A DNA stretch of 51,925 nt, from assembly GCA_019119975.1 (NCBI GenBank), contig DWVZ01000127.1:1-51925 (forward strand), in the 5' to 3' direction. This stretch comes from Candidatus Blautia merdavium. Lineage in GTDB: Bacteria; Bacillota; Clostridia; Lachnospirales; Lachnospiraceae. The translations under genes were made by a program, and so were the position numbers. Below, piece after piece: positions 44,517-49,689 of this stretch (the first letter of the stretch is position 1; every line of letters begins with the position of its first letter). Below the pieces are notes generated by a model. The model was not told where the DNA came from and ran no database searches. It saw only the letters and a program-made list of their open reading frames with translations.

Positions 44517-46094
44517 TTGAAAAAAGGAACTTCTCAGCTGCTGAAAAGAGCGGAGCATTTTAAGGCAATCCTGACCGGAGAGGGCTTTTTAGTAGGAATT
44601 ATCGCCGGGCTGGTGGTCCTTTTGTACCGGGTTCTGCTGGAGTATGCGGGAGCAGGCATGAATCTGGTTTTAAAGTACAGCAGGGAATATCCAGCAGTGG
44701 CAGGTATCTGGTTTCTGGTTCTTGCCGGGCTTGCCTGTGTCGTGGGAAGAATGGTGCGGTATGAGCCTATGATCTCCGGAAGCGGGATCCCCCAGCTGGA
44801 AGGGGAGATGGCAGGAAAGTTGGACCAGGTCTGGTGGAGAGTGATCCCTGCCAAATTTTTAGGCGGTTTTTTGTCCTTGTTTGCCGGGCTGTCCCTGGGA
44901 CGGGAAGGTCCCTCCATCCAGATCGGGGCAATGGCGGGAAAAGCGGTCTCCAAAGTCCTGGACAGAGGGAAGACAGAGGAAAAGTATCTGCTGACCTGCG
45001 GTGCCAGCGCCGGGCTTGCGGCAGCTTTTCATGCGCCTTTGGCAGGCGTGATGTTTTCCCTGGAAGAGATCCATAAGAATTTTTCTGTGTCCGTGCTGGT
45101 ATCTGTCATGACTGCGTCGATTACCGCAGACTATATATCCAGCCGGTTTCTGGGATTCGACGCGGTTTTCCAGTTTGATATCGGCGCGGAGATCCAGCCG
45201 GAATTTTACTGGCACATTTTGATCCTGGGCGCGATCTTAGGCGTTCTGGGAGCCTTTTATAATAAAATGACTCTCTGGGTCCAGGGACTGTACTATAAGG
45301 CAAAGAGACTGAATGAAACCACCAGGCTTCTGATCCCCTTTCTCCTTGCGGGGGTTCTGGGTCTGGTGATGCCTGAGGTGCTGGGAAGCGGGCATCATCT
45401 GATCGACATGGCTGCCCAGGAGCGTCTGGCGCTGACCAGCATCCTGGCGCTTCTGGCAGTGAAATTTCTGTTTTCCCTGATCAGCTTTGGCTCCGGGGCG
45501 CCGGGAGGGATTTTCTTTCCCCTTCTGGTGCTGGGCGCGCTGATCGGAAGCGCCTATAGTACGTTTGCTGTGCAGTATATGGGGCTGGATGCTTCTTATA
45601 TCAGCAATTTCGTGCTGCTTGCCATGGCAGGCTATTTCACTGCCATTGTGCGGGCGCCGATTACGGGGATTATCCTGATCTTTGAGATGACCGGGCAGGT
45701 CAGCCAGATGCTGTCCATGTCCCTGGTATCCATCACAGCCTATCTGGTGGCTTCTGCCCTGAGGTCAGAACCCATCTATGAGAGTTTGCTTCATTCCCTG
45801 CTGAAGAGGCGGGGAGAAAAGATTCCGGAAAAGACCGGAGAAAAGATCCTTCAGGAATTTGTGGTATGCCATGCCAGCCCGGTCCACAACCGGATGCTGC
45901 AGCAGATTTCGCTGCCGAAAAATTGTCTGGTGGTGGCAGTAAGAAGAAATGAGGAGGAGCTGATCCCCCGGGGAAGGACCATCCTGATGGCGGGGGATAT
46001 CCTTGTGACCCTTACCGATGAGGCGGATGCTTCTGCGGTGTACGACTGCATGGAGAAATTATGCGCAGAACAGGCGGTCAGGGAAAAGGGATGA
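44517..46094 (+). CDS. ClC-type chloride transporter with C-terminal RCK_C domain
   Basis: Membrane Cl-/H+ exchanger or channel. The 525 residues contain the selectivity motifs GSGIPQLEGE, GREGPSIQIG (with the gating Glu) and GAPGGIFFPLLVLGA. The second Glu used for proton transport in exchangers is in FSLEEIHKNF, so an exchanger is more likely than a channel. About residue 440 onwards is a TrkA_C-like domain (LVVAVRRNEEELIPRGRT, GDILVTLT). I chose TTG 44517, which lies 7 bp after AGGAGG (44504-44509). Confidence 0.92.
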   Translation: MKKGTSQLLKRAEHFKAILTGEGFLVGIIAGLVVLLYRVLLEYAGAGMNLVLKYSREYPAVAGIWFLVLAGLACVVGRMVRYEPMISGSGIPQLEGEMAGKLDQVWWRVIPAKFLGGFLSLFAGLSLGREGPSIQIGAMAGKAVSKVLDRGKTEEKYLLTCGASAGLAAAFHAPLAGVMFSLEEIHKNFSVSVLVSVMTASITADYISSRFLGFDAVFQFDIGAEIQPEFYWHILILGAILGVLGAFYNKMTLWVQGLYYKAKRLNETTRLLIPFLLAGVLGLVMPEVLGSGHHLIDMAAQERLALTSILALLAVKFLFSLISFGSGAPGGIFFPLLVLGALIGSAYSTFAVQYMGLDASYISNFVLLAMAGYFTAIVRAPITGIILIFEMTGQVSQMLSMSLVSITAYLVASALRSEPIYESLLHSLLKRRGEKIPEKTGEKILQEFVVCHASPVHNRMLQQISLPKNCLVVAVRRNEEELIPRGRTILMAGDILVTLTDEADASAVYDCMEKLCAEQAVREKG

Positions 46095-46122
46095 CAAGAA
46101 AGAAAAAGAGAGGTGTTATAGC

Positions 46123-48054
46123 TTGAATGCGAGAATCGAAGCGGCAGCCGGGGAAATACAAGCAATACCGGGATATACAAAAGCTTTGGGAGTGAGAAAA
46201 TGGAAAAACGGATACGAATTTTCCATAGAAGTCCCGAAGGGGGAGGAAGCGTCTCTTGTGCTGTACCGGACAAGAGACGGGATTGAGGAGCGGCAGGAGT
46301 TCCCATTTACGGAGGCTGGAAGGACAGGAGGGATCCTTTCCCTTCTGGTCACGGGAATCCGGCCGGAAAATACACAGTACAATTTCTGCCTGAATGGTCA
46401 GGTGATCCGGGATCCTTATGCCAGGGTCCTTGTGGGTACGCCGGAGTTTGGCAGAAAAGAGGAAGATCCGGAGAAGATCCGGTGCAGTTTTAAGGAGGAG
46501 ACCTACTCCTGGACAGACGGGCATTTCCAGGGCAGAGAGCTCAATGACTCCATCTATTATAAGCTGCAGGTGCGCAGCTTTACCATGCATAAAAATTCCA
46601 AAGTAAGGAAAAAAGGTACTTTTGCCGGCGCCATGCAGAAGATCCCCTATCTGAAGGAATTGGGGGTCACAGGCGTGCTGCTGATGCCTGCCTATGAATA
46701 CAGTGAGATCATGAAGCCGCAGACCAGAGGCGCCAAAGACTATCGGTATCCGGAGAACAAGCAGCCGGAGGAAAAGGCGCGGGTAAACTGCTGGGGTTAT
46801 ACCGGAGATGCCTGTTATTTCGCTCCCAAAGGGGCGTTCAGTGCTGCCGGGAATCCGGTGAGGGAATTCCGGGATCTGGTAAACGCCCTTCATAATGCCG
46901 GCATGGAGTGTCTGATGGAGTTTTTCTTTGACAGACAGACTTCTCTGACCAAAATGCTGGACATTTTAAAATACTGGAAATGCGCCTATCACATTGACGG
47001 TTTTCACCTTATGGGACAGGGCATCTGCAGAGAACTATTCATCAAAGATCCGGTCCTTGCAGGGTGCAAGCTGTTTTTCCACGATGTGGAGGAAGGTATA
47101 TTCGGAAAGAAGAAAGTGCCCCACAGGACCGTGGCGGAATACAACGAAGGGTTCCTTTATTCCATGCGCCATATGCTAAAGGGAGACGAAAATGCAGGAG
47201 AGGAATTTCTCTGGAGGAACAAAAGGAATCCTGCCTGCAGCGGAGTGATCAACTATCTGGCAGACCAGGACGGCTTTTCCATGATGGATATGGTATCTTA
47301 TGAGCAGCGCCACAATGAAGCCAATGGGGAGAACAACCAGGATGGGCTGGAATATAACTGTACCTGGAACTGCGGGACAGAAGGACCCAGCCGAAAGCAG
47401 AAGATCCGCAGACTTCGTCAGAAGCAGCTGAAAAATGCCTTTGCCATGCTGTTTTTGGCACAGGGCACGCCGCTGATCTTTCAGGGAGACGAATGGGGAA
47501 ACAGCCAGCAGGGCAACAACAATGTGTGGTGCCAGGATAATGAAGCAGGCTGGATCGACTGGAACGGAAGGAAGAACAACAGCCAGCTGCTGGAATTTGT
47601 GAAAAAAGCCATTGCTTTTCGCAAGGAGCACGGCGTCCTCCATATGGATGAGGAACCGAGAAATATGGATTACCGGGCGCTGGGATATCCGGACCTGTCC
47701 TATCACGGATCCCAGGCATGGGTCCTGAACCGGGACAGCAGCCTGAGGAGCCTGGGCATGATGTACTGCGGCGATTACAGCAACAAAGAACGGGAGTTTG
47801 TGTTCGCCGCCTGTAATTTTCATTGGGATCCCCATGAGATCGCCCTTCCGGGAATGCCGGGAGAGATTGTATGGAAAGAGATTATGCGGACAGACCGGGA
47901 AGAGGAGGGAGGATTCCTTTCGGAACCGGTGACAAGGAAAGAAAAGGTGGTGGAGGTACCGCCCCGAACCATTATCATATTGACAGGAAAGCAGGAAGAG
48001 AAAGCATGCGGGTCTGGCAACATTTTAAGACGATTACAAGGCACAAGCTTTTAG
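46123..48054 (+). CDS. GH13 isoamylase/GlgX-like protein lacking catalytic residues (putative pseudoenzyme)
   Basis: The 643 residues follow the GlgX/isoamylase plan: an N-terminal CBM48-like beta domain (FSIEVPKGEEASLVLYR), a barrel with YKLQVRSFT, LPYLKELGVTGVLLMP and NCWGYTGDACYFAPKG, and a late FLAQGTPLIFQGDEWGNSQQGNNN. The catalytic regions are altered: region I reads CLMEFFFDRQ where Asp and Asn-His are expected; region II reads DGFHLMGQGI for DGFRFD; region III reads FFHDVEEG for the acid Glu; region IV keeps Asp in DQDGF but His is Gln. It therefore should not cut glycosidic bonds and may bind or regulate glycogen. The start is TTG 46123, 9 bp after GAGAGG. It overlaps the next gene by 49 bp. 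Confidence 0.75.
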   Translation: MNARIEAAAGEIQAIPGYTKALGVRKWKNGYEFSIEVPKGEEASLVLYRTRDGIEERQEFPFTEAGRTGGILSLLVTGIRPENTQYNFCLNGQVIRDPYARVLVGTPEFGRKEEDPEKIRCSFKEETYSWTDGHFQGRELNDSIYYKLQVRSFTMHKNSKVRKKGTFAGAMQKIPYLKELGVTGVLLMPAYEYSEIMKPQTRGAKDYRYPENKQPEEKARVNCWGYTGDACYFAPKGAFSAAGNPVREFRDLVNALHNAGMECLMEFFFDRQTSLTKMLDILKYWKCAYHIDGFHLMGQGICRELFIKDPVLAGCKLFFHDVEEGIFGKKKVPHRTVAEYNEGFLYSMRHMLKGDENAGEEFLWRNKRNPACSGVINYLADQDGFSMMDMVSYEQRHNEANGENNQDGLEYNCTWNCGTEGPSRKQKIRRLRQKQLKNAFAMLFLAQGTPLIFQGDEWGNSQQGNNNVWCQDNEAGWIDWNGRKNNSQLLEFVKKAIAFRKEHGVLHMDEEPRNMDYRALGYPDLSYHGSQAWVLNRDSSLRSLGMMYCGDYSNKEREFVFAACNFHWDPHEIALPGMPGEIVWKEIMRTDREEEGGFLSEPVTRKEKVVEVPPRTIIILTGKQEEKACGSGNILRRLQGTSF

Positions 48055-48542
48055 TAATGAGCTATTGCTTCAAAATAGGATTATACAAACAGGGGCTGCT
48101 CCACGACCTGTCCAAGTATTCCTGGACAGAGTTTTCCGTAGGATGTAAATATTATCAGGGAGACCGCAGCCCCAACAACGCGGAGCGGGAAGCTACCGGG
48201 CTGTCCACCTCCTGGATCCACCATTACGGCAGGAACAAGCACCATTTTGAGCACTGGGTGGATTACGGCATTGACTGCGATACTATTATCCAGGGAGTGC
48301 CCATGCCCAGAAAATACATAGCAGAAATGGTCATGGACCGGATCAGCGCATCCAGGAATTATCATCCGGCTACCTATACGGACAGCGCTCCGCTGGAGTA
48401 TTTTTTAAAAAGCAAGGACAAATTATGGTTTGTCCATGAAAAGACCAATGAGGATCTGGAACTTCTGCTGCGGATGCTGGCAGAAAGAGGGGAGAAAGAA
48501 ACACTGAAATATATTAAGCATGTTTATTTGAAAGGGAAGTAA
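48006..48542 (+). CDS. DUF5662 family protein
   Basis: Function unknown; the family is common in Clostridia. The 178 residues show HLLHDLSKYS-like HDLSKYSWTEFS (about residue 33), HHYGRNKHHFEHWVDYG and PMPRKYIAEMVMDRISASRNY. The repeated His and Asp residues suggest a metal-dependent HD-like fold, but this is inference. ATG 48006 lies within the 3' end of the GH13 gene, so translation is probably coupled; AGGAAGAG is 4 bp upstream. Confidence 0.8.
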   Translation: MRVWQHFKTITRHKLLVMSYCFKIGLYKQGLLHDLSKYSWTEFSVGCKYYQGDRSPNNAEREATGLSTSWIHHYGRNKHHFEHWVDYGIDCDTIIQGVPMPRKYIAEMVMDRISASRNYHPATYTDSAPLEYFLKSKDKLWFVHEKTNEDLELLLRMLAERGEKETLKYIKHVYLKGK

Positions 48543-48555
48543 GGGAGTTATGAAT

Positions 48556-49689
48556 ATGAATGCTGAACAGATTCTGGGAATAATCAAAGGATTTCGGGAA
48601 GAGATTCCATGGCAGTATCTGGTCGTTGCAGCTATGGCAATCGCAGTCTTTTCCGCGCTGAACTGTTTCCTGGGGTACCGGCTGAGAAAGGTGTGGAGCT
48701 GTATCCTGGGCATCGGATTCGGAGGGGGAGGCGGCACGGCTGCGGTGTATCTGGTGCTTCACGATAAGACGCTTGCCATCTTAGGCGGGGCAGTGTGCGC
48801 GCTGCTTTTCGGGGCGCTTGCCTGGGTCCTCTATAAATTCGGTGTTTTCGTGATGTGCGGAGGATTGGTGTATGCCTGTATCCTTTTCCTGCTCAGCGAG
48901 CCGTCCCTGGAACAGTGCCTGATCGCTCTGGCGGCATGGGTCTTTGCAGGGACGCTGGCGCTGGGCTATGAGAAACAGGTGGTGATTGCCATTACCGCGT
49001 TCTGCGGGGCATATGGGACCATCCATATGGTATTTTTCATGACCAAGATCGAAACCCGGGCAGGGGAATTGATCCTGACTCTGGTGCTGGGACTGATCGG
49101 CGCTGTGGTACAGGCTGCTCCCTTCTTTAAGGGCGAGGACGTGGAAGCAGGGCTTCTGAACCTGTTCTCCAGAAAGAAAAAGAAGAAAGTGGTCCATAAA
49201 TCCAAAGTTACCCATGTCCATAAGGTAAAGAACCAGGAGAAAAACAGCCGGTATGTGAAACGCCCTTCTTCTATCAGCCGGGAAGAGGAGCCGGCGCCCC
49301 GGTATGACCGCAGAGAGCCCCAGAGGACATATCCTGACTGGGAAGCGGAGCGGGAGACATATGGAACCCATGAAAGAGAGAATAACGCCCGCTATAGCCA
49401 GGGAAATCCTTATGACAGCTATGGCTATGGGACAGTCAGGGGAGAGGAGAGCAGAGGTTATAAAGAAGATCTGGACAGCACCCGGGTATACGATACCCGT
49501 TACCAGGAAAGCAGGGAAGATCTGGATAAGACCCGGGTTTATACCGGACAGGAGATTCCTTTCCAGCCGGAGACCAGACAGAAGAATCCCTCTTACATGG
49601 CGCCGGGCATGGGGATTGACCTGGACAACCTGAACCGGGAACTGTCTCAGGAGATACAGAAGATTTATCAGGAAGAGAATCAGGAATAG
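48556..49689 (+). CDS. DUF4203-like membrane protein with charged tail carrying two DLDxTRVY motifs
   Basis: Function unknown. The first about 190 residues contain about seven hydrophobic helices (LVVAAMAIAVFSALNCFLGY; ILGIGFGGGGGTAAVYLVL; FVMCGGLVYACILFLL), a DUF4203-type layout. A basic stretch (RKKKKKVVHKSK) then leads to a disordered Arg/Glu/Tyr-rich tail. The tail has two nearly identical EDLDSTRVY and EDLDKTRVY motifs and a final amphipathic helix (LNRELSQEIQKIYQEE). These threonine motifs may be phosphorylated and read by an FHA-type protein, which is speculative. I chose ATG 48556 (9 bp from AAGGGAG) over ATG 48550. A strong terminator follows. Confidence 0.7.
   Translation: MNAEQILGIIKGFREEIPWQYLVVAAMAIAVFSALNCFLGYRLRKVWSCILGIGFGGGGGTAAVYLVLHDKTLAILGGAVCALLFGALAWVLYKFGVFVMCGGLVYACILFLLSEPSLEQCLIALAAWVFAGTLALGYEKQVVIAITAFCGAYGTIHMVFFMTKIETRAGELILTLVLGLIGAVVQAAPFFKGEDVEAGLLNLFSRKKKKKVVHKSKVTHVHKVKNQEKNSRYVKRPSSISREEEPAPRYDRREPQRTYPDWEAERETYGTHERENNARYSQGNPYDSYGYGTVRGEESRGYKEDLDSTRVYDTRYQESREDLDKTRVYTGQEIPFQPETRQKNPSYMAPGMGIDLDNLNRELSQEIQKIYQEENQE

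Follow-up and report, generated by a model that had tools for sequence, protein, structure and literature searches.

A gene that keeps the build of a glycogen debranching enzyme after its active site has been dismantled raises the question of what its product is maintained for. Such a gene lies in the window, the 51,925-nucleotide stretch of contig DWVZ01000127.1 of Candidatus Blautia merdavium analysed here (Table 1), and we refer to its product as pseudo-GlgX. The initial annotation, made from the sequence alone, described a GlgX-like protein that had lost its catalytic residues at several sites and proposed a selected non-catalytic role, such as glycan binding or scaffolding, rather than decay.

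A GlgX fold without its active site

Table 1. Features of the pseudo-GlgX locus, in window coordinates.
Feature	Position	Strand	Description
CLC chloride channel gene with TrkA_C domain	44517..46094	+	28 bases upstream of pseudo-GlgX
Pseudo-GlgX gene	46123..48054	+	643 aa, TTG start; GlgX/isoamylase fold, dead active site
Former region I	46915..46938	+	MEFFFDRQ replaces LDVVFNHT
Former region II	46996..47016	+	DGFHLMG replaces DGFRFDL; M297 at nucleophile
Former region III	47068..47091	+	KLFFHDVE replaces KLIAEAWD; H320 at acid/base
Former region IV	47251..47277	+	NYLADQDGF; Q382 for His, D383 kept
Residues 394-480 (HNEANGENNQDG..WNCGTEG..GDEWGNSQQGNNNVWCQDN)	47302..47562	+	almost as conserved as in catalytic GlgX; includes E403, N467, W469
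Residues 511-535, linker with YPDLSYHG	47653..47727	+	conservation in the pseudo group slightly above that of catalytic GlgX
DUF5662 gene (PF18907)	48006..48542	+	49-base overlap with pseudo-GlgX 3′ end; recurrent downstream partner

The TTG at 46123 is the likelier start of the gene, because the longer frame on the list opens with an ATG (46018) that falls within the upstream CLC gene and because GAGAGGTG precedes the TTG at 46108-46115. The nearest relative (L033, 84% identical) shows the same start arrangement. The open frame is intact, as the initial annotation stated in calling it full-length, but it falls short of GlgX length, with about 44 residues missing between regions I and II.

The TIGR02100 (GlgX) profile matched pseudo-GlgX at E 2e-80 with 270.7 bits, short of the family cut-off of 640.9 bits, and a PDB search returned solved GlgX and isoamylase structures (Sulfolobus GlgX 2vnc, E 8e-60). 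The predicted model (pLDDT 89.7) has the overall GlgX/isoamylase fold of N-terminal beta part, barrel and C-terminal beta part; Foldseek aligned it to GlgX and ISA1 structures with query TM scores of 0.73-0.81 among the matches listed, the best solved one among these being rice ISA1 (TM 0.80). The intact GlgX plan described earlier was thus borne out for the fold and for a beta-rich N-terminal part, but the proposed CBM48-like start gave a Pfam CBM_48 match of only 17.7 bits, below the cut-off of 22.4. By descent pseudo-GlgX is a member of the GlgX fold family; as an enzyme it is not GlgX.

Pseudo-GlgX was compared by alignment with 27 GlgX proteins, among them the catalytic one encoded in its own genome (L002, G000:C99), and against these all substitutions of the initial annotation were confirmed. 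Region I has lost its Asp and Asn-His (LDVVFNH to MEFFFDR; E266, D270, R271), region II carries Met for the nucleophile Asp (DGFRFD to DGFHLM; M297), region III His for the acid Glu (LIAEAWD to LFFHDVE; H320) and region IV Gln for His (CHDGF to DQDGF; Q382). The Asp-Glu-Asp triad of Streptomyces venezuelae GlgX, given as Asp342, Glu378 and Asp450 in the available part of the source (PMC9530166), aligns with M297, H320 and D383, so that the third residue alone is kept.

This loss extends well beyond the window. The comparison covered 130 loci, of which L003 is a second piece of L002 and was set aside, so that 129 homologous proteins remained: 102 of a pseudo group, the window's included, and 27 ordinary GlgX, with no intermediates between active and dead forms; several rows of the two alignments, A1 and A2, begin at an internal Met. 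The nucleophile Asp and the region I His are each present in 27/27 GlgX and in 0/102 of the pseudo group, a loss beyond chance, and the acid/base Glu in 27/27 versus 14/102. The region I Asn persists in 3/102 and the region IV His in 25/102. Also missing from 102/102 pseudo-group proteins is the stretch of some 44 residues between regions I and II; it is present in 27/27 GlgX, as well as in 10/10 GlgX read from other families. The window's own substitutions are not typical of the group, Met occupying the nucleophile position in 32/102 and His the acid/base position in 20/102. Judged by these residues, pseudo-GlgX is probably devoid of hydrolytic activity.

Retention of sugar-contacting residues

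For S. venezuelae GlgX, the available part of PMC9530166 lists W222, Y224, H271, D342, E378, W380 and H449 as subsite -1 contacts, and R212, E470, N534 and Y536 as contacts of the other acarbose sugars. With this numbering transferred by way of S. flavotricini GlgX (offset 110-111), E470, N534 and Y536 aligned with E403, N467 and W469 of pseudo-GlgX, and R212 found no counterpart. These three mappable outer-sugar contacts, of four, are kept throughout the pseudo group: E403 and N467 in 102/102 each, and an aromatic residue at 469 in 102/102 (Y 76, W 26). Among GlgX proteins the Glu of this position is less constant, at 18/27 for E403. Within subsite -1, the group retains W224 in 101/102 and Y/F226 in 101/102, H271 and D342 are gone from all members, and E378, W380 and H449 remain in 14, 17 and 25 of 102.

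Overall, pseudo-GlgX shares with the bacterial-archaeal glycogen debranching enzyme GlgX/TreX (GH13_11-type, TIGR02100) its fold, the HNEANG..NQDG..NCGxEG and GDE..GNNN..QDN blocks and the mapped outer-subsite residues; unlike that enzyme, it lacks the nucleophile, the region I Asn-His and the stretch between regions I and II, has its acid/base Glu replaced, and scores less than half the TIGR02100 cut-off. This residue pattern is as expected of a protein that holds glucan without cutting it, and among non-catalytic roles such as glycan binding or scaffolding the retained outer-subsite residues favour the former. The retention could also be structural, because 61 of the 175 columns conserved in GlgX are kept at ≥90% in the pseudo group anyway.

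We lean, by a modest degree, towards reading pseudo-GlgX as a glucan-binding pseudoenzyme derived from a GlgX/isoamylase of GH13_11 type, a bacterial counterpart of plant ISA2.

Distribution of pseudo-GlgX and its relation to catalytic GlgX

Among 299 Lachnospiraceae genomes, about one per genus, 243 contain a match to the window protein and about 232 the dead form as assigned by score (E below 1e-70; at most the best four candidates per genome scored). The 11 genomes with weaker matches were left out of the latter count, and five of them have no detected GlgX (G048, G074, G130, G147, G189). When every candidate was scored, 20/20 genomes of the window's genus proved to carry the dead form (cut by a contig end in G300).

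Beyond the family, a class sample searched at E <= 1e-60 yielded the dead form in 8/10 Lachnospiraceae members and in 0/281 others, six of the latter giving GlgX-like matches, which began at model position 261-262 or were broken into two pieces, and being classed by that pattern rather than by residues. An order sample of 116 genomes gave the dead form in nine Lachnospiraceae members and 13 outside matches; ten of these 13 were read (G624, G689 and G696 were left out), and all ten have intact catalytic motifs and are GlgX. A phylum sample of 199 contained no pseudo-GlgX match outside Lachnospiraceae at E <= 1e-60. Within the class, order and phylum samples, at E <= 1e-60, the dead form is thus seen only in Lachnospiraceae. 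Of the dead-form loci that have a name, most but not all bear one from Lachnospiraceae; the exceptions are Eubacterium sp. (L055, L096) and Clostridium sp. chh4-2 (L075), and several loci are titled only uncultured Clostridiales or bacterium.

When 44 dead rows and the 27 active ones were placed together, a single branch with SH-aLRT 100 parted the two groups; the tree was built by a quick method with SH-aLRT support only, is unrooted, includes 44 of the 102 pseudo rows and retains the catalytic columns. L086 and L106 form long branches in it. No description of a bacterial dead GlgX was found among the matches listed in searches of the open-licence PMC literature.

Glycogen synthase (GlgA) was detected in 289/299 genomes (at most the best five candidates per genome scored) and in 228 of the approximately 232 with the dead form; completeness of the four dead-form genomes without detected GlgA is 95, 61, 95 and 77%. 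Because GlgA is near-universal, this co-occurrence says little. Catalytic GlgX, assigned by score from the best three candidates per genome, was detected in 98/299 (TIGR02100 E <= 1e-120), 62 of them above the curated cut-off. Both forms occur in 92 genomes, the dead form only in 140, the active form only in 6, and neither or an ambiguous match in 61.

Of the 20 genomes of the window's genus, again with all candidates scored, 20/20 have glycogen synthase (in two frames in G299) and 12/20 have catalytic GlgX (divided between two contigs in G311). No type I pullulanase lies above cut-off in these 20 genomes, two matches at E <= 1e-60 being GlgX itself. Eight of them (G299, G302, G303, G307, G308, G309, G310, G314) have glycogen synthase but yielded no catalytic GlgX and no type I pullulanase. 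The synthase match in G299 (G299:C1:1229989-1231411) runs over two overlapping frames, reflecting a real frameshift or a sequence error.

These counts bear on the idea that the dead protein pairs with catalytic GlgX as a subunit that alters its stability or specificity, in the way that plant ISA2, a noncatalytic paralogue, is bound to ISA1 according to the available parts of PMC12510319 and PMC3787081. The pseudo gene occurs in 92/98 genomes with catalytic GlgX versus 140/201 without it (Fisher p 6e-7, kinship ignored), and the two genes lie a few kb apart on one contig in G133:C30 (about 151-157 kb) and G126:C6 (about 66-72 kb). However, the 140/299 genomes with the pseudo gene and no GlgX detected among the best three candidates make it unlikely to be a GlgX subunit only, and 8/20 genus genomes, two of them single-contig, lack catalytic GlgX even when every candidate is scored. 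Such a phyletic distribution speaks against an obligate complex, and a role solely as GlgX partner is disfavoured; we regard the subunit explanation as unlikely, at roughly one chance in five.

Association with DUF5662

The glucan-binding reading must also accommodate the gene that overlaps the 3′ end of pseudo-GlgX, whose product belongs to DUF5662 (PF18907) at E 3e-34; the overlap suggests translational coupling. We surveyed 75 dead-form loci, namely the window, 20 chosen good matches and 54 others (7 belong to the genus). In 50/75, DUF5662 follows downstream on the same strand at a distance of up to 0.9 kb, and in 42 the distance is -97 to +99 bases; in L068, L074, L082, L085, L093, L095 and L140 it lies 0.65-0.9 kb downstream and is not adjacent. 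The upstream gene is visible in 39 of the 42 adjacent pairs and falls into 13 different clusters, that of the CLC gene accounting for 8/39; the pair therefore persists while its surroundings change. None of the 26 catalytic-GlgX loci carries DUF5662.

Among the 25 commonest neighbour clusters of the 75 loci, no glycogen gene stands out by eye, which counts against the glucan-binding reading. One cluster of membrane proteins of about 222 aa, presumably TraX-like, occupies position +1 in 12/75 loci. In the window, DUF5662 is directly followed by a frame at 48550-49689 whose product has a long polar tail and matches TM7S3/TM198 only weakly, below the cut-off.

The DUF5662 protein was modelled as mostly helical (pLDDT 93.3), and H13, H33-D34, H72-H73, H79-H80 and D111 are invariant in 31 rows, a pattern that strikes us as reminiscent of metal-binding HD-type hydrolases. 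Foldseek found no match of the model to solved structures with E < 0.001, and an HD fold was rejected, since Ddi2 and YpgQ, which we take to be HD proteins, appear only at E above 4. No paper naming DUF5662 was found among the matches listed in a search of the open-licence PMC literature.

So recurrent a neighbour allows a reading without glucan, in which the DUF5662 protein would be scaffolded or inhibited by the GlgX fold; the persistence of the pair and its absence from catalytic-GlgX loci speak for it. Nevertheless, 25 dead-form loci have no downstream DUF5662, 19 of them despite more than 1.5 kb of downstream sequence, and DUF5662, found in 246/299 Lachnospiraceae genomes, also occurs where dead GlgX is missing (e.g. 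G002, G021). Nor does this reading give a clear reason for keeping the sugar-contacting residues, and we rate it as rather improbable, somewhat below the subunit explanation.

Constraint on the dead barrel

Relative to GlgX, variability in the pseudo group is raised 1.6-fold overall (85 thinned pseudo rows against 27 GlgX rows, which differ in spread), 3.4-3.7-fold at residues 259-345 (regions I to III), 2.4-fold around region IV and 2.0-fold in the CBM48-like part, compared with only 1.2-1.3-fold at residues 394-510 and 0.86 in the linker (511-535). Constraint was therefore relaxed on the catalytic side and maintained on the beta7/beta8 side. That the CBM48-like part, a natural glucan binder, varies more than the protein overall counts against the glucan-binding reading.

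Conceivably the barrel could instead house a changed enzyme, with a different catalytic arrangement or residual activity. The fold is intact, the region IV Asp is kept in the window protein and in 44/102 of the group, 77/102 still have an acidic residue at the position of the region I Asp (Glu 68, Asp 9), and D516 and D524 are conserved and pseudo-specific. Yet the nucleophile Asp and the acid/base Glu occur together in 0/102 rows, the former catalytic positions vary among relatives, and the pseudo-specific acids sit in the C-terminal linker. A relocated active site, which the initial annotation had named as evidence that would speak against it, was also sought by column conservation, and no newly conserved acid emerged in the barrel. 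A changed enzyme is, in our estimate, very improbable.

Pairwise dN/dS across orthologues, a check proposed in the initial annotation, gave 0.060-0.122 by NG86 (8 pseudo-GlgX pairs) and 0.066-0.162 by YN00 (6 pairs), for frames that include codons upstream of the start and with a dS of 1.57, near saturation, in the window pair. In length, 96/102 members of the pseudo group have at least 600 aa, and the other six 393-598 aa. A decaying gene, suggested by the loss of several catalytic sites and of a segment, is contradicted by these dN/dS values (0.06-0.16), which speak against recent decay too, and by the long open frames of the relatives, and has next to no probability. The proposal of a selected non-catalytic role is accordingly upheld by these dN/dS values, by the spread over about 232/299 genomes and by the single branch separating active from inactive proteins. 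The dead GlgX family is spread through Lachnospiraceae under purifying selection, more widely than the initial annotation reported.

Proposed role and implications

Under the glucan-binding reading, the cleft would have lost its catalytic half, made up of regions I-III and the loop that joins I to II, most simply once and early in Lachnospiraceae, and the fold would then have been retained as a glucan-binding protein. The cleft wall on the beta7/beta8 side (W224, Y226, E403, N467, W/Y469) and the C-terminal linker would hold maltooligosaccharide chains of glycogen uncut. Pseudo-GlgX, probably made together with DUF5662, might then recruit or regulate another protein at the glycogen particle, or protect chain ends.

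A more speculative extension, to which we give about one chance in eight, is a two-protein glycogen module in which the dead enzyme acts as the glucan-binding arm that brings DUF5662 to the glycogen particle. By editing either the polymer or some bound metabolite there, DUF5662 might control storage turnover across Lachnospiraceae, including species without GlgX.

Two known dead proteins offer parallels. Plant ISA2 is described, in the available part of PMC12510319, as a noncatalytic isoamylase paralogue kept by selection in which most conserved catalytic residues are changed; in pseudo-GlgX, likewise, most conserved catalytic residues are changed, the nucleophile included. The two belong to different organisms, so the losses were presumably independent, and ISA2 works with ISA1, whereas pseudo-GlgX often occurs where catalytic GlgX was not detected. 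GlgD, an inactive GlgC paralogue in Firmicutes, is dead, belongs to the same pathway and phylum and has a modulatory role; in contrast to pseudo-GlgX, it comes from a different protein family and is found in complex with its active paralogue, as far as the available part of PMC9093745 describes it.

Noncatalytic isoamylase is known from plants as ISA2, and why it was selected is said in the available part of PMC12510319 not to be understood. If our reading is true, a bacterial counterpart of ISA2 would make that question testable by simple genetics. The dead form, moreover, occurs in more Lachnospiraceae genomes than the working enzyme (about 232 versus 98 of 299). A review, in its available part, credits Blautia obeum with two glgX homologues (PMC10395257), and since gut genome surveys count glgX homologues, debranching capacity may be over-called.
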